DNA from: Nitrospirota bacterium | GTDB lineage: Bacteria > Nitrospirota > Thermodesulfovibrionia > Thermodesulfovibrionales > Magnetobacteriaceae | Direction of reading: 5' to 3' | Assembly (NCBI GenBank): GCA_015233685.1 | Contig: JADFXF010000015.1 | Span: 1-37,714, forward strand | DNA length: 37,714 nucleotides | In this document: piece by piece, positions 7,604-18,010 of the stretch | Position numbering within the stretch: position 1 is the stretch's first letter | Layout of the letters: the number at the start of each line of letters is the position of its first letter | Translations under genes and position numbers: made by a program | The notes under the pieces: generated by a model | Seen by the model: only the letters and a program-made list of their open reading frames with translations | What the model was told of the DNA's origin: nothing | The model's database searches: none

Positions 7604-8980
7604 ATGCAATTTTTAGCGCCACGCAGGGGGTTTGCCCGTATGCTTGAGATGCACTTTGGAAACATGCTTGAAGAGGTTATCGGAGATAAGGGCCTGTCTT
7701 TAGTTGAAATAGAAGGAATTCGCGAAAAAACTGCCATTGCGCACAGCCAAATACATGAGCGGAAATGGGAGGAGCTTGCCTTTGTTGATCTGGTCAATCA
7801 GGACACCGCCAAAATCAAGGAGCTTGCCGAGAGCATCGTCAAAAACTCAGACCTTTTTCTTCTGCTGGGAATTGGCGGCTCTGCCATGGGGCCGCGCGCG
7901 ATACTTGAGGCGCTTCAGCCTATGCACAATTTCAGGAATCATCCTAAGATATTCATTTACGACAACATTGACCCGCGAACACTGGATGCGATTATTGAGA
8001 TCATTGACCCTCACAGGACAACCGTGAATGTAGTCTCCAAATCAGGTAACACCGCCGAGACCGTTGCGTCATTTATGATCTTTTGGGAACATATGAACAA
8101 GGCACTTGGCAGTGAGGCTGCCAGGCGATTTATCATCACCACAAATCCAGAGGGCGGGATTCTCAGGCAAATCGTCAGGGAAAATAACCTGATGTCTCTG
8201 CCCATACATCCTTCCATTGTCGGGCGCTACTCCGTGCTCAGCCCCGCTGGCCTGCTCCTGTCGGAGATTGCCGAAATTAACTCCGACGAGCTGTTGCTTG
8301 GCGCTAAGGACATATTAACCAAATGCTCTAATGCTGAGCTGTGGGAGAATCCGGCATACTTGTTTTCTGTTTTATTGTACCTCATGTGCGTAAAGGAAAA
8401 GAGGACGGTCAATGTTATGATGCCATATGCCGATGGCCTAAAATCCCTTTCAGAATGGTTTTGCCAGTTGTGGGCGGAAAGTCTGGGCAAACTCGGCCTC
8501 GGCATAACCCCGTATCCCGCCGTCGGCACTACTGATCAGCATTCGCAGCTCCAACTCTGGATGGAAGGCCCTGAGGACAAGGTCGTCATTTTTATTCGCA
8601 TAGACGACTACGGCTCCAATATTCGCATCCCAAAGGTGTTTGAAACAATTGAAGAGTTCAGTTTACTGTCAGGCCAGTGCCTGAATGACCTTATAGGGGC
8701 TGCCGCGAAGTCCACCGAGCTGGCGCTTTCTAACGCCTCCAAGCCCAACATGACTATCACTATGCCGTCGCTGGACGCCTACCATGTTGGACAGCTTTTT
8801 ATGTTCTTCCAAATTTGCACGACATTTATGGGCTTTCTCTTTGGGGTAAACCCGTTTAATCAGCCATGGATAGAAGCGGGGAAAAATAACACATTCGGTC
8901 TGCTGGGCAAACGCGGGTTTCAAAAACAAAAAGAAGATATTGCGCGCATGGCCAAAGGCAATATCTGCTGGAAGTTATAA
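7604..8980 (+). CDS. pgi: Glucose-6-phosphate isomerase
   Basis: Interconverts glucose 6-phosphate and fructose 6-phosphate in the cytoplasm. The open frame gives 458 residues. Family marks include LLLGIGGSAMGPRA near residue 87, VSKSGNTAETVASF near 145, SIVGRYSVLSPAG near 206 and the C-terminal signature FNQPWIEAGKNN. The ATG at 7604 has no visible Shine-Dalgarno; an ATG at 7640 has AGGGGG nine bases upstream and may be the true start (446 residues). The gene is followed on the same strand, after about 50 bases, by aconitase, so the two may share a transcript linking hexose phosphate and TCA metabolism. Confidence 0.95.
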   Translation: MQFLAPRRGFARMLEMHFGNMLEEVIGDKGLSLVEIEGIREKTAIAHSQIHERKWEELAFVDLVNQDTAKIKELAESIVKNSDLFLLLGIGGSAMGPRAILEALQPMHNFRNHPKIFIYDNIDPRTLDAIIEIIDPHRTTVNVVSKSGNTAETVASFMIFWEHMNKALGSEAARRFIITTNPEGGILRQIVRENNLMSLPIHPSIVGRYSVLSPAGLLLSEIAEINSDELLLGAKDILTKCSNAELWENPAYLFSVLLYLMCVKEKRTVNVMMPYADGLKSLSEWFCQLWAESLGKLGLGITPYPAVGTTDQHSQLQLWMEGPEDKVVIFIRIDDYGSNIRIPKVFETIEEFSLLSGQCLNDLIGAAAKSTELALSNASKPNMTITMPSLDAYHVGQLFMFFQICTTFMGFLFGVNPFNQPWIEAGKNNTFGLLGKRGFQKQKEDIARMAKGNICWKL

Positions 8981-10982: not shown

Positions 10983-11002
10983 ACGGGGGAGGGTACTCCC
11001 CC
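10983..11002 (+). terminator. Weak hairpin after aconitase
   Basis: GGGGGAG-GGTA-CTCCCCC can form a seven-pair hairpin 15-20 bases after the aconitase stop. No U-tract follows, so it is either a weak terminator or only a 3'-end stabiliser. Confidence 0.35.
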
Positions 11003-11070
11003 AAGGCGATCGCATTTGAAAAATAAAGCAGAAGATACCTATGAAATCATTCCAGTTTTGTTTCTTTCCG

Positions 11071-11160
11071 TCATTCCGGTGCCTTTGCTGTCATTCCGGT
11101 GCCTTTGCTGTCATTCCGGTGCCTTTGCTGTCATTCCGGTGCCTTTGCTGTCATTCCGGC
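11071..11160. repeat. 20-bp tandem repeat array, 4.5 copies
   Basis: The unit tcattccggtgcctttgctg occurs at 11071, 11091, 11111 and 11131 without a mismatch, then a half copy at 11151-11160 runs into the palindromic element. Frames read through it (for example 11016-11258) are low-complexity artefacts. The array lies in the 365-base gap between convergent aconitase and glycosyltransferase genes. Confidence 0.95.
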
Positions 11161-11250
11161 TTGTCCGGAATCTTCCCTTTAGTGGGAGTTTTATAATTAT
11201 TGTACATGTTCTGAGGTATAAGGACAGATTCCGGACAAGCCGGAATGACA
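11149..11250. repeat. 24-bp perfect inverted repeat, REP/MITE-like
   Basis: Arms 11149-11172 and 11227-11250 are exact reverse complements around a 54-base centre. Each arm also folds on itself (ATTCCGG-CTTGT-CCGGAAT). There is no open frame or U-tract. This matches the general form of intergenic palindromic repeats rather than a simple terminator. Apart from this element and the tandem array, the gap 10968-11332 shows nothing else. Confidence 0.85.
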
Positions 11251-11332
11251 AAAAATAAGGGCGGTGACAAAAATAAGGGAGGCAATTTCTAATGCGTTTG
11301 CCTTGGGGTACCCCCCGAATATGTCCTATTAT

Positions 11333-12772
11333 TCACACAAATTTGATGCGGCTTGCGGCAAACACTACCATCTTCAGGAGAAGCCAGCCGTGGCTCCAGC
11401 GTTGAATGTTTGTTGTGCCGTAGAGGCGCTGCCTGTACCTGATGGGCATTTCGACAATCTTCAGATTTAGCTTAGCCGCGCCGAAAAGCAGGTCAAAGTC
11501 GCCAAAGGGGTCAAAGTCGCCGAAGTATGGCCTGTTTAAGGCGATTTTCTCATAATCATTTTTTAGGATAACCTTCGTACCGCAGAGGGTATCCTTTATT
11601 GGCTGGCCTAAGAGCCACGAAAAGGCAAGACTGAAAAACTTATTCCCAACCTGATTAAAAAAGCGCATGGCATTGTCCTCCATTGAGTAAACAAGGCGCA
11701 CACCGTTTATAAACTCACCCTTGCCTGAGCATAGGGCGTGGTAAAATCGCGGGAGGTCTTCGGGGGCTACCGTCATGTCGGCATCAAGAATCATCAGGAC
11801 ATCCCCCCCGGCCTTCTCAAAGCCGAGGCGCACGGCGTCGCCCTTGCCCTTGCCTGATTGCCGGTAAAGGCCCGCGTTTATGCCGGGGTGGTTTTTTATC
11901 TCCCGTTCAATAACCTCATACGTGTTGTCAGTGGAGTGGCCTTCCACGAAGATTAACTCGGTCAATTTTCCCATCTGCGGCGTCCTCTCAAAAATAGAGG
12001 CAATATTTCCGGCCTCGTTTCGGGCTGGGATTACTACCGACACGGTGGGGGGGGCGACGTCGCTGTCTTTATTGGGCGGCATAGGGCGGCAGATGATAAA
12101 GTTCGACAGTGCCAGCTCACTCATGGGCCATGTCTTCACTATTACCCGATTGAGGAGCATATTTAACAACCCACCGGGCAGTGGCCACAGTATCTCGCGC
12201 CTCCGTGAGATAACCTCAAAGCCCTGAAGGTAGAGCATGTTTTCAATATCCTCTACGGTAAGCCAGTTTTGCTCTATGCGCGGGTGCGTCAACCCAAGCA
12301 AAGAGGCCGCCTTTAAGGGCATCTCCCAAAGGCGGCTGTATATATTGATAATTATCCTCGTGTGCGGGGCGGCTATTTTTGATATTTGATTAAACACCGC
12401 CTCGACATCCCACAAATCATGGAGCAGGTCTGAGAGGATCACCACGTCAAATTTTTCTTCTATATCAAGAAGATGTACGTCGCCCGGTATGAAGTTAAGA
12501 TGGGGATAGCTGGCACGGGCGCGCCTGACCATCTCCCCTGAGAAGTCTATGCCAAGGCCATAGGACGGCCTCAGTGCCGCAAGAAGCCCCCCCTGTGCAG
12601 TACCCAGCTCGATAACTCTAAGGCCCTCGGCAACCAAATGCCTGTAAATCTCTGTGACCCTTTGGCGATAGTACCTTCCAAGCCCGGGCCGCGTGTCCGC
12701 ACGGCACGCCTGCGCGTCATAGTATTCAATACGCCTTTTCGTGTAAGTATCAAACTGGTTATCCGTATTCAG
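11333..12772 (-). CDS. Bifunctional SAM-dependent methyltransferase / family 2 glycosyltransferase
   Basis: The N-terminal half is a class I methyltransferase (VIELGTAQGGLLAAL, then GIDFSGEMV and FDVVILSDLLHDLWDV). The C-terminal half is a GT-A glycosyltransferase (VSVVIPARNEAGNI, MILDADMTVAPEDL with the DxD metal site, and GTTNIQRWSHGW near the end). The first usual start is TTG 12637, but that begins just before the SAM motif. The same frame continues upstream with convincing protein (DAQACRADTRPGLGRYYRQR) to CTG 12772, bounded by TAA at 12784. The true start is therefore probably CTG 12772 or another rare codon, giving about 479 residues. It probably builds cell-surface glycans or lipid-linked sugars at the inner face of the membrane. 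The acceptor is unknown. Confidence 0.85.
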   Translation of the reverse strand: MNTDNQFDTYTKRRIEYYDAQACRADTRPGLGRYYRQRVTEIYRHLVAEGLRVIELGTAQGGLLAALRPSYGLGIDFSGEMVRRARASYPHLNFIPGDVHLLDIEEKFDVVILSDLLHDLWDVEAVFNQISKIAAPHTRIIINIYSRLWEMPLKAASLLGLTHPRIEQNWLTVEDIENMLYLQGFEVISRRREILWPLPGGLLNMLLNRVIVKTWPMSELALSNFIICRPMPPNKDSDVAPPTVSVVIPARNEAGNIASIFERTPQMGKLTELIFVEGHSTDNTYEVIEREIKNHPGINAGLYRQSGKGKGDAVRLGFEKAGGDVLMILDADMTVAPEDLPRFYHALCSGKGEFINGVRLVYSMEDNAMRFFNQVGNKFFSLAFSWLLGQPIKDTLCGTKVILKNDYEKIALNRPYFGDFDPFGDFDLLFGAAKLNLKIVEMPIRYRQRLYGTTNIQRWSHGWLLLKMVVFAASRIKFV

Positions 12773-12832
12773 CCGCCTTGATTATTTAATTGACACCTTA
12801 TGTTATCTGAAAAAGAACAGCCTTATTGCAAC

Positions 12833-13261
12833 TTAGGCAACATCAATACGGTCTTTATCTTCAGGTTTCTCTGCAGCCGCCATTCGTCCTGCTATTGTGA
12901 TTAGCCCACAGGAATTGCCGCTTTCTTGTTCAAGACGGCATTTAATATATATTTCTTTAAGTAAATTCTTTAGTTCTTCCCCTATTTCTTCTGGTGGGCT
13001 GCCTGAAAGTGCAGTAATGGCTAAACGTTCCGCTTCTATAAGATTACCACAGTCACACGCAAGAGTTGCCGCGCTGCGATATAACACTGACCTCGTAGGC
13101 TCAAGCGTAGAGTCTTTATATGATTCAGCCGCCTTTCGCTCAAGCTCAAACGCAAGCAAAAAAAACTCCTTCGCCCTCTCAAGGTCTCCTTTCTGCTTAT
13201 AGTAGAAGGCCTCTTCTGCGTACTTCATAGCCTTTCTATGCGTTGTCATTACTTCGTTCAT
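12833..13261 (-). CDS. Unrecognised TPR-like helical protein, second gene of an overlapping pair
   Basis: 142 residues. The first 60 look like TPR-type helical hairpins (AMKYAEEAFYYKQKGDLERA, then KEFFLLAFELERKAAESY), and a second set follows (VLYRSAATLACDCGNLIEAE). It has no signal peptide, so it is probably cytoplasmic. The start ATGA at 13261 overlaps the stop of the upstream gene by four bases, so the two are translationally coupled. TPR-like folds usually bind other proteins; the partner here may be the 178-residue product of the upstream gene. I do not recognise the family and assign no function. Confidence 0.7.
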   Translation of the reverse strand: MNEVMTTHRKAMKYAEEAFYYKQKGDLERAKEFFLLAFELERKAAESYKDSTLEPTRSVLYRSAATLACDCGNLIEAERLAITALSGSPPEEIGEELKNLLKEIYIKCRLEQESGNSCGLITIAGRMAAAEKPEDKDRIDVA

Positions 13262-13794
13262 AATCTTTTTATATTTGACTTTGGCCTGCTGAATTCCACA
13301 ATTATTATAAAAGCCGACATTGGGTTTTGCTGTTTTAGTAAACGGCTTAATTTAATCTTTGATCTGTATGTCATGTCGCTGTCATCACCTTTACGGATCC
13401 CCGATACTTCCAAACGAGCCCGATCATTATAAAGATAATTATCGTCCCTCTTTCCTAACCAATAGTCAAATGCAGTGCCCTTTCTCGATTTTTCAATAAC
13501 AGTGTATTCGGTAAGATCAAGAATCAGCATAATTGCCACTCCATATGCCCCATGTTCAGTTGCCACCTCGCTGTCATTATAACAATTTCTCATCTGCTGT
13601 GTAACCTCAGGCAGTGTGAGTCTAAATAATTCCTCGAAATCGCCCTCGACTTTTAACCCGACACCACTATAATTGCCCTGCTCCTCAAGGCATACCGCCG
13701 CGCATTCGGCCAATATCAAACCAAAATGTCTTGTCAGGGCCGGGATTTCTCCCTTTCCCAAATCTGATAAGTCTATGGACTTCACAGTATTCAT
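13258..13794 (-). CDS. Unrecognised protein, first gene of an overlapping pair
   Basis: 178 residues, no signal peptide or membrane helix. Visible marks are an N-terminal helical part with LTRHFGLILAECAAVCLEEQG, a middle segment FDYWLGKRDD near residue 117, ARLEVSGI near 130, and a C-terminal strand-like AFIIIVEFSRP. The order (small aromatic DYWLG motif, ARLEVSG, then a hydrophobic strand ending in VEF) hints at an alpha/beta fold, perhaps nuclease-like, but no complete catalytic set is evident. Translation of the downstream TPR-like gene is coupled by a four-base overlap. The pair lies between two glycosyltransferase genes without an obvious link to them. Function unknown. Confidence 0.7.
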   Translation of the reverse strand: MNTVKSIDLSDLGKGEIPALTRHFGLILAECAAVCLEEQGNYSGVGLKVEGDFEELFRLTLPEVTQQMRNCYNDSEVATEHGAYGVAIMLILDLTEYTVIEKSRKGTAFDYWLGKRDDNYLYNDRARLEVSGIRKGDDSDMTYRSKIKLSRLLKQQNPMSAFIIIVEFSRPKSNIKRL

Positions 13795-13908
13795 TCATAA
13801 ACAGGCAGCCGCCTTATATCGGCACGGCAGCCGCCACATGTACTATTATATTATTTATCTGTATGCAATGTACATATTTCGACAATTTTGCTATCATTTA
13901 GCGAGACT

Positions 13909-15432
13909 ATGGTTATCACAAGCAATAAAGACAGGGTTTTGTGGTTAATAGACGCCGCATTGTGTGTTTTTGCCGCTTATGTCGGCTGGCGGTGCATAAA
14001 CTATGCCTCAGGCGTGCTGCTGCCTTCTGATTCGGCCATATTTGTTAACATTGCCCATCACCTTATTCATGGGAAACTCCTGTATCGCGACGTGTGGGAA
14101 AATAAGCAACCCGTTGTCTTTGCCATCAATGCCCTTGCCCTGAAACTCGGCGATGGCTCTTTTAACTCAATCAGGGCCATGGAGCGGTTGTTTGCCGTCG
14201 GCGCGGCCATAGCGTTTTTTATAATCACCGTGAGGACTTTTGTTTCTTCGTGGATAGCCACCACGTTTACAATAATTTTTTTGGTCTACTTTTACTCTCC
14301 AATGACGTTCAGCATGGGGAATTTTACAGAGGAATACGCCTCAGTGTTCATGATTATCGGTGTGCTTTGCTCCCTTGAGGCCGTACGGCGGGAAAACACA
14401 TTTTTAGTCCTGTTGTCAGGTGTGTTTTTTTCTGTTTCCGTGCTGACTAAAGAACCATTTTTACTGTCGGCGCTGCCGTGGATGGTTTATTTGCTCCTCA
14501 GCAAGGCCGTTAGGCAGGGAAGGCTCAAGCGTCTCAGTATTTTTACCGCTGGTGCCGCTGTCCCACTGCTGGTGGCCGCGGCCTGGTTTGCAATTACGGG
14601 GACTTTGACACTCTGGCTTGACGTAATATATTTTAATCTCACATTTTCAACCCATGAGACGTCTTACCAGAGTCCCATTTCACAGAAAGCAGCCCTGAGT
14701 ATCCACGCGTTTTCAACCCTGGTCTGGTTTATCAGGACGGTGAATGTGTTTTTTGTGCTGGGCGTTATAAGCGTGTTTCAAAAATCTTTTTTGCGGAAGT
14801 ACAGGTATGTCCCGCTGGTACTTCCCTTTTGGTTTATCCTGAGTCTGCTTGCCGTAAACATTCAAAACCACCACTACAACCATTACTATATTCAGGTAAT
14901 GCCGGGCTTTATAATGACGGCGGCCTGCGGTGCGGCATGGATGGCGTTTAATGGCAAGCGCGCGTTTCGCCCCATGCTGCCAGATGTCCTGATTGCCGCC
15001 TTTTTGATATTATCCCTCCTGATTTTCGACAACACAATGGCAAGGGCAGGCTTCAATATGCTCACTAAGTACACAGCGTCAACCGTGGCGGAGGAGCCTG
15101 TGTCACTCTACATAAAAGAACACACCAAAGACAACGATACCATATGGGTGCCCTCATACGATAAATATATATACCTGCAGTCGGGAAGGCTTTCACCGAC
15201 GAAATACTTGTTTTTCTTTGGTATGTCCTTTTTCCCGGGGATGTTAGAGACGACCACGCAGAAGATGGCCTCTCTCAGGGCAGATTTGCTGAAAAACCGG
15301 CCGGCCTTCATATTTTTAACGCGGGACAACGAGTTGGATATACTCAGTCCTGTTGGAATTCCACAGTGGGTGAAGGAAAATTACACGTTAGACAGCACAT
15401 GGTACGATGGCCAATTACTAAGGAGAAATTAA
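13909..15432 (+). CDS. GT39/ArnT-like integral membrane glycosyltransferase
   Basis: About 507 residues with roughly ten hydrophobic helices. The first loop has LLPSDSAIFVNIAHHL with acidic residues, then LLYRDVWENKQPVVF, the arrangement seen in GT39-type enzymes (PMT, ArnT and relatives). These use polyprenyl-phosphate sugars as donors in the periplasm. I use the ATG at 13909; a TTG at 13888 would add seven residues but has no better ribosome binding site. The C-terminal soluble part (DTIWVPSYDKYIYLQSGR) is typical of the family. It is divergent from the 13258-13794 pair. Substrate and acceptor cannot be read from the sequence. Confidence 0.8.
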   Translation: MVITSNKDRVLWLIDAALCVFAAYVGWRCINYASGVLLPSDSAIFVNIAHHLIHGKLLYRDVWENKQPVVFAINALALKLGDGSFNSIRAMERLFAVGAAIAFFIITVRTFVSSWIATTFTIIFLVYFYSPMTFSMGNFTEEYASVFMIIGVLCSLEAVRRENTFLVLLSGVFFSVSVLTKEPFLLSALPWMVYLLLSKAVRQGRLKRLSIFTAGAAVPLLVAAAWFAITGTLTLWLDVIYFNLTFSTHETSYQSPISQKAALSIHAFSTLVWFIRTVNVFFVLGVISVFQKSFLRKYRYVPLVLPFWFILSLLAVNIQNHHYNHYYIQVMPGFIMTAACGAAWMAFNGKRAFRPMLPDVLIAAFLILSLLIFDNTMARAGFNMLTKYTASTVAEEPVSLYIKEHTKDNDTIWVPSYDKYIYLQSGRLSPTKYLFFFGMSFFPGMLETTTQKMASLRADLLKNRPAFIFLTRDNELDILSPVGIPQWVKENYTLDSTWYDGQLLRRN

Positions 15433-15489
15433 GCACGGGGATGAGAGCTTGGGCGCTTACAGTAAAATAAATTAATTTACACAGGTTTC

Positions 15490-15519
15490 TTTACACATTT
15501 GTATTGAATGTGTTATCAT
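15490..15519 (+). promoter_or_regulatory. Promoter of rpsO-pnp
   Basis: TTTACA (15490-15495) and TATCAT (15514-15519) are separated by 18 bases, about 65 bases before the rpsO start. The leader in between may hold the S15 autoregulatory site known from other bacteria, but I could not define one. Confidence 0.5.
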
Positions 15520-15584
15520 TGATCAGATGTCGGCTGTTTTATTAAGAAGGCATACATTAAAAGCTGAAAAAAAGGGGTGATAAC

Positions 15585-15854
15585 GTGTCTCAAACAAAAG
15601 AGACTAAGCATACGATGATCGAGGATTACAAGATCCATGAGAAGGATACTGGCTCTCCGGAGGTCCAGATAGCCCTCTTAAGCGACAGGATGAAGTACTT
15701 GTCGGAACATTTTAAGACGCACACGAAAGACCATCATTCGCGGCGTGGGCTTTTGAAGATAGTTGCAAGGAGAAAGAAGCTCCTCGACTATTTAAAGACG
15801 TCAGACGTAAAACGTTATAAATCGCTAATCGAACGGTTAGGAATCAGAAAATAG
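15585..15854 (+). CDS. rpsO: 30S ribosomal protein S15
   Basis: 89 residues, the standard uS15 length, with the family marks [25 protein letters not shown] and [14 protein letters not shown]15 binds 16S rRNA early in small-subunit assembly. The start is GTG, preceded by AGGGGTGA. pnp follows after 11 bases, the conserved rpsO-pnp order in which PNPase turnover of the shared transcript is known in other bacteria. Confidence 0.97.
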
Positions 15855-15865
15855 AGGAGAGAATA

Positions 15866-18010
15866 TTGACATCTACAGAAGTCATAATAAGCGAAAAGAA
15901 TCTGATATTGGAGACAGGGCTTTTAGCCAAGCAGGCGGATGGCTCAGTCGTCGCCAGATATGGCGATACGATGGTTCTTGCAACCGCCGTGGCGAATAAG
16001 GCAACCGTTGAGGGAAAGGATTTCTTTCCACTGACGATAGATTATATTGAGAAGGCGTACTCGGCCGGTAAGATACCGGGCGGTTTTTTAAAGCGTGAGG
16101 GTAGGCTGTCAGAAAAAGAAGTCCTCACCTCTCGTCTTATTGACAGGCCTATAAGACCGCTCTTTAAGAAGGGGTTTAACTCCGAGACGCAGGGCATGGT
16201 CTCTGTGCTTTCCTATGGCGACGAGAACATCGCCGATATACTTGGGATAACGGCGATTTCAGCGGCGTTGCTCATCTCGGACATACCGTTTGAGGACGCG
16301 GTTGCGGCCGTAAGGGTTGGCCGTTTTGCCCCAAATGCCCCAAATGCTGGTGAGGCCGGAGATATTGAAAGGGCTGGAAAGATAGTAATCAACCCGTGTT
16401 TTGAAGACATGGCCTTGCTTGATCTGACCCTCGTCGTTGCCGGTACAGCCGAAGCCGTTACGATGGTAGAAGGCGGCGGGCTTGAAGTACCCGAAGATGT
16501 GCTTATTACGGCAATAGACCGCGCCCACGAAGAGATAAAAAAAATAATCGGAGCAGAGAACCTCTTAAGAGAAAAGGTCGGCAAGCCAAAACGCGCCGTG
16601 GCAGAGGTCAAAGAAAATGAGGCGCTTGCCGCATCTGTTAAAGACCTGTGCGTTGAGAAAATGCGCGACTCTATAAGAATACCAGACAAGCTTAAAAGGC
16701 AGAAGACCCTTGACGGCATCCTTGAAGAGACTATAAAACAGTTGACTGCCACAGACCCGGAGGTCAATGCCAGAGAAATTGCGAAATTGTTCGAGCACCT
16801 TGAGCAGGAACTCGTAAGGACCTCAATCATGAACGACGGCATAAGGGCGGATGGCAGAGGGGCGGACGAAATCAGAAAGATAGACTGTCACCTGAACCTG
16901 CTCCCAAGGGCACACGGCTCAGCGCTCTTCGTAAGGGGCGAGACGCAGGCACTTGTGGCCGTAACACTGGGGACTTCGCATGACGAGCAGCGGGTGGACT
17001 CGCTTGACGGCGACACATACAGGTCATTCATGCTTCACTATAACTTTCCTCCGTTCAGCGTAGGAGAGGTGAAACCCCTGAGATCCCCTGGCAGAAGAGA
17101 AATAGGACACGGGGCACTGGCGGAGCGCTCAATAAAATCAGTCCTGCCGGGCGCGGATGTGTTTCCATATACGATACGCATTGTGTCGGACATACTGGAG
17201 TCCAACGGGTCGTCATCAATGGCCTCGGTGTGCGGGGCAACGCTTGCCCTGATGGATGCTGGTGTGCCGATAAAGGCACCGGTTGCCGGTATAGCGATGG
17301 GTCTTATTAAGGAAGGCGAAAAGGTAGTAGTGCTGACTGACATTTTAGGTCTTGAGGACCACTTCGGAGATATGGATTTCAAGGTATCCGGCACTAAGGA
17401 GGGCATAACCGCCTTTCAGATGGACGTAAAGATAAAAGGCGTCAGCCGTGAGGTAATGGTGGGAGCGCTTGAAAAGGCAAGGCTCGGCAGGCTGCACATA
17501 CTGGGCAAGATAGGCGAGGCAATCTCAGAGCCGCGTGCGGAGTTGTCTAAAAACGCCCCCAGAATATTCCAGATGAAGATAAGGGCTGATAAGATAAAAG
17601 ACGTAATCGGCTCAGGCGGCAAGGTAATCAAGGGAATCATTGAGCAGACGGGCGTGAAGATAGACATAAACGACGAAGGCATTGTGACCATAGCCTCAAG
17701 CGACGAGGCCTCGCTGGCAAAGGCGAGGGCAATCGTGGAAGGCATCGTCGAAGACGCCCAGATAGGGCGCATATACAAGGGCAAGGTAAAAAAGATAATG
17801 GACTTCGGGGCATTCGTAGAGATTCTCCCCGGTACAGATGGGCTTTTACACATATCGCAAATCTCTGACAAGCGCGTCAACAAGGTAACCGACGAGCTCA
17901 AAGAGGACGATGAGGTCATGGTAAAGGTTATTGAGATAGACAGGGCCGGAAAGATAAAGCTGAGCCGGAAAGAGGCAATGAAAGACGCGGCTAAACAATC
18001 AGAAACGTAG
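15866..18010 (+). CDS. pnp: Polyribonucleotide nucleotidyltransferase (PNPase)
   Basis: A 3'-5' phosphorolytic exoribonuclease, cytoplasmic, 714 residues as usual. It starts at TTG 15866 with GAGGAGA about seven bases upstream. Two RNase PH domains (GGFLKREGRLSEKEVLTSRL near residue 72; GRREIGHGALAERS near 410) flank a helical linker. A KH domain follows (DVIGSGGKVIKGI near 580), then an S1 RNA-binding domain (GRIYKGKVKKIMDFGAFVEI near 635). It lies directly after rpsO and ends at a strong terminator at 18080-18107. No truncation or odd residue was seen. Confidence 0.98.
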   Translation: MTSTEVIISEKNLILETGLLAKQADGSVVARYGDTMVLATAVANKATVEGKDFFPLTIDYIEKAYSAGKIPGGFLKREGRLSEKEVLTSRLIDRPIRPLFKKGFNSETQGMVSVLSYGDENIADILGITAISAALLISDIPFEDAVAAVRVGRFAPNAPNAGEAGDIERAGKIVINPCFEDMALLDLTLVVAGTAEAVTMVEGGGLEVPEDVLITAIDRAHEEIKKIIGAENLLREKVGKPKRAVAEVKENEALAASVKDLCVEKMRDSIRIPDKLKRQKTLDGILEETIKQLTATDPEVNAREIAKLFEHLEQELVRTSIMNDGIRADGRGADEIRKIDCHLNLLPRAHGSALFVRGETQALVAVTLGTSHDEQRVDSLDGDTYRSFMLHYNFPPFSVGEVKPLRSPGRREIGHGALAERSIKSVLPGADVFPYTIRIVSDILESNGSSSMASVCGATLALMDAGVPIKAPVAGIAMGLIKEGEKVVVLTDILGLEDHFGDMDFKVSGTKEGITAFQMDVKIKGVSREVMVGALEKARLGRLHILGKIGEAISEPRAELSKNAPRIFQMKIRADKIKDVIGSGGKVIKGIIEQTGVKIDINDEGIVTIASSDEASLAKARAIVEGIVEDAQIGRIYKGKVKKIMDFGAFVEILPGTDGLLHISQISDKRVNKVTDELKEDDEVMVKVIEIDRAGKIKLSRKEAMKDAAKQSET

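Follow-up and report, generated by a model that had tools for sequence, protein, structure and literature searches.

In a 37,714-nt stretch of DNA from a Nitrospirota bacterium related to magnetotactic bacteria (contig JADFXF010000015.1; hereafter the window), we found two overlapping genes, here named A and B. Judging from their sequences, they probably encode an effector with a restriction-endonuclease (REase) fold plus a partner protein, and the pair itself appears uncatalogued in the libraries searched. We give about even odds (a probability near 0.5) to the reading of A-B as a mobile immune or toxin-antitoxin (TA) module of two genes, in which the nuclease-fold effector would be controlled by its TPR partner.

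The gene pair in the window

Gene A (13258..13794, minus strand) is an ORF with an ATG start, and its 178-aa product, the proposed effector, was assigned to the REase fold from a structural model and from conservation. Gene B (12833..13261, minus strand) also starts with ATG and encodes 142 aa, which represent the short form of a TPR-like protein according to a weak TPR_8 match and alignments. The two ORFs have four bases in common, the ATGA at 13258..13261 (minus strand), where the stop codon of A meets the start codon of B. The initial annotation had described two intact ORFs with such an overlap, one TPR-like and the other carrying the motifs FDYWLG and ARLEVSG in a possible alpha/beta fold. 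Both ORFs were recovered, and both motifs lie in A. Overall, its interpretation of the pair was partly supported; our analysis goes beyond it in naming the fold, in finding a longer form of B elsewhere, and in describing neighbours, some of which point to defence or TA biology.

The window belongs to a 2.03-Mb draft genome, 64.65% complete, in which a single A was found; of the named relatives found, Candidatus Magnetominusculus xianensis is the closest. On one side the pair is flanked by a methyltransferase-glycosyltransferase ORF, and on the other by a mannosyltransferase-like gene, PNPase and an M16 peptidase. We noticed that within 12637-12770 the methyltransferase-glycosyltransferase gene has ACG where the congener G004 has an ATG start; the ORF is listed in the window only from a TTG at 12637, and its relatives have 475-477 aa. 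An Rfam scan of positions 11000-16000 returned no match.

When Pfam, PHROGs, PADLOC and NCBIfam were searched, no match of A or B passed a curated cut-off or had a low E-value, which ruled out a known family in these libraries for either protein. Among the system proteins of PADLOC 2.0.0, no match was obtained at E values up to 5, in agreement with the earlier statement that the pair could be assigned to no known system. Relatives of A and B also remained below the Pfam cut-offs, the best being HTH_35 for the Anabaena B (19.1 vs 25 bits). By sequence search of the PDB, the best E was 0.32 for A, and engineered TPR proteins were found for B. No description of the A-B pair was found in those parts of the open-licence literature that were covered, and it may be in print elsewhere.

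Fold and active-site residues of A

We built the model of window A on 12 of 14 aligned sequences, with two plasmid rows left out, and obtained a mean pLDDT of 91.9 and a pTM of 0.90. The core runs in the order helix (75-94), three strands (97-102, 111-115 and 126-133), helix (138-153) and strand (161-167). The alpha/beta fold suggested earlier could thus be specified as a predicted REase fold. When the model was compared with the PDB by Foldseek, ranks 1-4 were all SPARDA chains, the best at E 2.8e-3 and none below 0.001. VIA-align 2 matched it to SPARDA DREN (Z 7.1, 101 residues, 3.3 A), LHK exonuclease (Z 6.4), Hjc (Z 5.7), a hantavirus cap-snatching endonuclease (Z 5.4), a tRNA-splicing endonuclease (Z 5.3) and EcoRV (Z 5.1). 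Among the best 20 VIA-align 2 rows, 19 are presumably nucleases of this fold, the exception being 2qx2; all have Z of at most 7.1, and values below 8 may reflect a common arrangement frequent among unrelated folds. The REase fold gains weight because these matches agree and because invariant residues fall at the expected catalytic places. A viral structure library gave weak matches, mostly to unnamed or REase-fold viral proteins; one match, at E 5e-4, is to an uncharacterized protein, and none in this library names A.

Asp110, the first catalytic acid of the fold (codon 13465..13467, minus strand), lies directly before strand 111-115 in the model. Glu129 and Ser131 lie inside strand 126-133, at the place of the (D/E)xK motif with its lysine changed to serine (codons of Glu129-Val-Ser131, 13402..13410, minus strand). 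Arg144 and Lys148, the candidate replacement basic residues, lie in helix 138-153 (codons of Arg144 to Lys148, 13351..13365, minus strand). All five residues are invariant in 19 of 19 loci, where only the in-frame piece was counted in broken A genes. At position 80, in the first core helix, 17 of the 18 loci for which there are data have Glu, and one has Asp.

In terms of the PD-(D/E)xK signature, the acid at the start of strand 2 is present as Asp110 in every locus (19/19), and strand 3 carries Glu-x-Ser instead of (D/E)-x-K in every locus (19/19). We therefore term A an REase-fold protein, not a canonical PD-(D/E)xK nuclease, and its nuclease activity stays putative since the signature lysine is absent throughout. 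Lysine migration occurs elsewhere in the PD-(D/E)xK superfamily; in A, the candidate for such a replacement is Lys148 of helix 138-153. Taken together, the model supports a PD-(D/E)xK fold for A with both catalytic acids kept.

The serine found in all 19 loci would also suit a catalytically dead REase-fold sensor that would bind nucleic acid or nucleotides and signal via B to neighbouring STAND or caspase-like proteins. In line with this, the gene that directly follows B in G012, downstream of A-B, is a NACHT gene, and in G008 the pair is divergent to a CHAT-AAA-TPR gene. However, a dead enzyme would not require invariant Asp110, Glu129, Arg144 and Lys148, and a NACHT, CHAT, other STAND or KAP NTPase gene is close by in only 4 of the 19 loci. 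We regard a dead sensor as unlikely.

Three of the fold matches, Hjc, EcoRV and LHK exonuclease, have both acids, as A does; unlike A-B, they have an active-site lysine and are not known to have a TPR partner. The best solved fold matches of A are SPARDA DREN-APAZ proteins of short Argonaute systems. Excerpts of the SPARDA account place the DREN catalytic residues D41 on beta2 and Q60 and K62 on beta3, in the same order as D110 and E129, S131 of A (PMC12205087). SPARDA rows share 6-14% identity with A, and the two differ in that the partner there is Argonaute/APAZ, whereas here it is TPR-like, and in that the catalytic lysine there is a serine in A. No Piwi/APAZ match was obtained for window A, window B or nine long B proteins.

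The partner B and its coupling to A

The initial proposal of a TPR-like partner was borne out by a weak TPR_8 match of window B (E 0.0019, 18.6 bits). This score lies under the Pfam cut-off of 25.7 bits, and no TPR profile exceeded its cut-off, so B is called TPR-like here. Across the loci, B occurs in two forms. Long B has 366-383 aa, with about 112 TPR-like residues followed by a region of about 250 residues, for which no family match was found; a Pfam search of nine long B proteins gave nothing above a cut-off. Short B proteins in pairs, to which window B belongs, have 115-156 aa and do not carry the long region. We looked for remnants of that region near short B in 17 loci and found none, while three positive controls were recovered.

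We also modelled the long B of L004, with a mean pLDDT of 78.4; the values are high over the TPR part and fall off after it. Its helical part matched TPR domains (Z 13.6, 104 residues, 2.2 A), a Z that helical repeats easily give, and the model ends in a beta-rich part. With the whole model, Foldseek gave a weak match to baculovirus LEF-3 (E 0.039, 80 columns). The beta-rich end and this LEF-3 match could fit a restriction-like enzyme of two subunits in which B serves not for inhibition but for targeting or sensing, where long B would recognise invader nucleic acid or protein and deliver A. The conservation of the 250-residue region beside A in Nitrospirota and viral contigs speaks for such a role, as does the long form of B beside A in all six viral contigs with a pair. 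Nevertheless, several A proteins, the window's included, pair with a short B without the region, and phage B without A is harder to explain in this way. We consider a targeting subunit somewhat unlikely.

Nineteen distinct A loci were collected, the two Leptolyngbya assemblies being taken as one (the window, L002-L005, L008, L009, L011-L013, L016-L018, L021-L024, L062 and L065). A relative of B directly follows the relative of A in all 19, and no A without B was seen. The tight two-protein module proposed in the initial annotation therefore holds across these loci, and the survey of pairing that it had called for did not reveal the absence of pairing that would have counted against it. The four-base overlap is present in 14 of the 19 loci, as GTGA in L022 and as ATGA in the other 13; L013, L018, L062 and L065 have a longer overlap, and L012 has a gap of 2 bases. 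For the B of G012 (L013/L053) the match was weak (E 0.0023), and its assignment rests also on position. In relatives, the B profile gave a further 16 weak matches (E 2e-5 to 9e-4), which were left out of the B counts; this profile included the Hymenobacter fusion row. On the Hymenobacter plasmid (L017:6456-7361), we observed an unusual fusion, in which the TPR part of B belongs to a protein of 301 aa with the annotation sugar transferase.

The gene arrangement supports translational coupling of B to A. It also agrees with two features of type II TA systems, namely adjacent co-translated genes (19/19 loci) and a toxin not kept without its antitoxin (no A without B in 19 loci), although long B, at 366-383 aa, is not small. 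Estimates of dN/dS were 0.13-0.25 for A (15 pairs) and 0.19-0.45 for B (21 pairs), compared with 0.12 for the neighbouring methyltransferase-glycosyltransferase gene (window vs L002). These are rough values, obtained by the Nei-Gojobori method with Jukes-Cantor correction and with several dS above 1. They indicate that both A and B are under purifying selection.

Mobility, neighbours and solitary B

We found A in 9 of the 60 genomes that formed a set of relatives. A sample of 198 genomes of the phylum yielded 5 with A, all from the window's family. The genome of the window is counted in both cases. In other phyla, plasmids carry A in Anabaena cylindrica, Leptolyngbya boryana (two assemblies) and Hymenobacter radiodurans, and A also occurs in six viral contigs. 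On the Anabaena plasmid pANACY.01 (L016:7864-11235), a 1123-aa protein near the pair matches the RdRP family PF05183 (26.4 bits, cut-off 23.8).

The unit at 12786..13903 of the window is absent in two congeners. In G004, the closest congener, 57 bp replace this interval, the adjoining DNA is 93-95% identical, and PNPase is 98% identical; A was not found in this genome, which is 73% complete. In G001, 96 bp replace 12751-13907, and PNPase is 95% identical to that of the window; this genome has its own A-B pair elsewhere, with A frameshifted. In Ca. M. xianensis, the pair occupies the site that it has in the window, the mannosyltransferase gene is largely missing, and PNPase is 91% identical to that of the window. 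G004 and G001 thus lack the pair at this site although their PNPases are closer to that of the window than the M. xianensis PNPase is, a distribution that requires losses or repeated gain. Besides A and B, the unit contains a promoter-like site upstream of A, TGTACA-18-TATAAT (13845..13874, minus strand), identified by a consensus scan only, which found 7 sites in 1.3 kb vs 3.1 +/- 1.8 expected. At the ends of the unit, no inverted repeats were found, and a search for target-site duplications gave short direct repeats only. These comparisons support gain or loss of the A-B pair as a unit.

The housekeeping and envelope genes around the pair in the window (PNPase, peptidase M16 and glycosyltransferases) would be in keeping with an ordinary cellular gene pair of metabolic role. 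Such a role is very improbable in view of the patchy occurrence of A (9/60 genomes), its varying presence between species with 93-95% identical flanks, and carriage of the pair on plasmids and in viral contigs.

Among the 19 loci, eight have a defence, conflict or TA gene close by, a count to be taken as an impression and not a statistic, as it stands without a comparison with random loci; in the other 11, the window included, no defence gene was present among the neighbours scanned. The Leptolyngbya locus contains IetA and IetS and a nucleosidase-STAND protein, the Hymenobacter locus a KAP NTPase like PifA, and L021 a D12 methylase, a SacI-like gene and AbiV. In L062, A-B lies between a methylase-ResIII pair and SIR2-HerA, and in L003 MNT-HepT directly follows B. 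At L057 (G002; 8295-8564), a ParE-like ORF (23.3 bits, cut-off 23) shares one base with the end of B, placed as if B or A-B were its partner. Whole pairs also occur on phage-like contigs; in L023 a terminase gene lies about 3 kb from the pair, and in L065 the pair is soon followed by a serine recombinase. The NACHT and CHAT neighbours in two Nitrospirota loci recall STAND/NACHT conflict systems, which likewise combine REase-fold and TPR components; in the parts of those accounts covered here, REase and TPR appear as domains in larger multi-gene systems, and a two-gene A-B pair is not described (PMC7159879, PMC8195603).

In three loci, A is broken while the TPR part of B is open, by a frameshift in L005 and L011 and by an in-frame stop in L018. 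The stop has the same sequence in the second Leptolyngbya assembly; two of the three broken genes lie in draft assemblies and may be sequencing errors. The reverse, a broken B with an intact A, was not seen among the 19 A loci. We further identified nine loci with B but without A in the record or genome searched, where virus records may be fragments. Seven are short B genes in viral records (G215-G219, G221 and G222; L025, L026, L060, L063, L066, L068 and L069). Phage genes (RecT, virion protein, endolysin, terminase, portal) lie near B in all six of these records whose neighbours were scanned, the seventh being L026/L058. The remaining two are L052 (G011) and the cyanobacterial plasmid TIOX110 (L051:1046-5306), where B is interrupted by a Tn3-type transposon. 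Inside this B gene we observed a Tn3 transposase and an integrase, adjoining a RelE/ParE-type toxin gene.

An eighth viral solitary B, L067, occurs in the same record as the complete pair L024. That pair adjoins an ORF which by eye resembles a serine recombinase, the short B lies about 22 kb away, and the B proteins of L024 and L067 are sisters on the TPR-part tree. In the viral records, B beside A is long (366-383 aa) in 6/6 cases, and solitary B is without the long region in 8/8 (102-126 aa, with 221 aa in L066). On a tree of 26 TPR parts, the labels solitary and paired need 8 changes, which is no fewer than for shuffled labels (382 of 500 shuffles gave a number as low), and at least 3 changes are forced by the starred branches. 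These changes imply several origins of solitary B or several recruitments of paired B. Among INPHARED phage records, tblastn gave no match for window A, long B (L023) or short B (L026).

The asymmetric decay of the pair and the occurrence of B without A would also be expected of a plain TA addiction module with no immune role, as would plasmid and viral carriage and the TA neighbours in L003 and L057. This is improbable, as the restriction, SIR2-HerA, IetAS and AbiV neighbours favour immunity, though TA and immunity overlap.

A proposed mechanism and the phage-borne partner

We favour a nuclease-fold effector restrained by B because the catalytic acids are kept, the helical partner is co-translated, A was not seen alone, A is broken more often than B, the unit is mobile, and the partner occurs alone in phages. 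In such a module, A would be the effector and would cleave nucleic acid, to the harm of the cell or of the invader. B would bind A via its TPR part and hold it inactive, and long B might also sense the trigger or aim the enzyme. Infection or damage would then free or activate A. As window B is of the short form, sensing in this organism would fall to the TPR part or to another protein.

Where phages encode nothing of B but its TPR part, the products may be antitoxin mimics, and phage-borne B may serve counter-defence. DarTG offers a comparison. DarT is an ADP-ribosyltransferase, and hence its fold is unlike that of A. According to the sections of the DarTG report covered here, phage ICP1 counters this system with AdfB, a phage-borne antitoxin mimic, so that in both cases phages carry a relative of the second gene of a small pair on its own (PMC11481870). 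The two differ in that counter-defence has been reported for DarTG/AdfB, whereas for A-B toxicity, neutralisation and counter-defence are proposed from gene content. More tentatively, A-B could be an undescribed immune family with a displaced-lysine effector, from which phages would repeatedly have acquired just the TPR part of B; as a decoy antitoxin, this part would neutralise A. If this were true, an antagonist pair could be read from gene content.

In summary, A-B adds an uncatalogued, widely scattered candidate family of immune or TA modules, for which a fold and a probable active site can be given. Its TPR-like part accompanies the effector in cells and on mobile elements and occurs by itself among the genes of phages, which provides an opening to the question of phage counter-defence.
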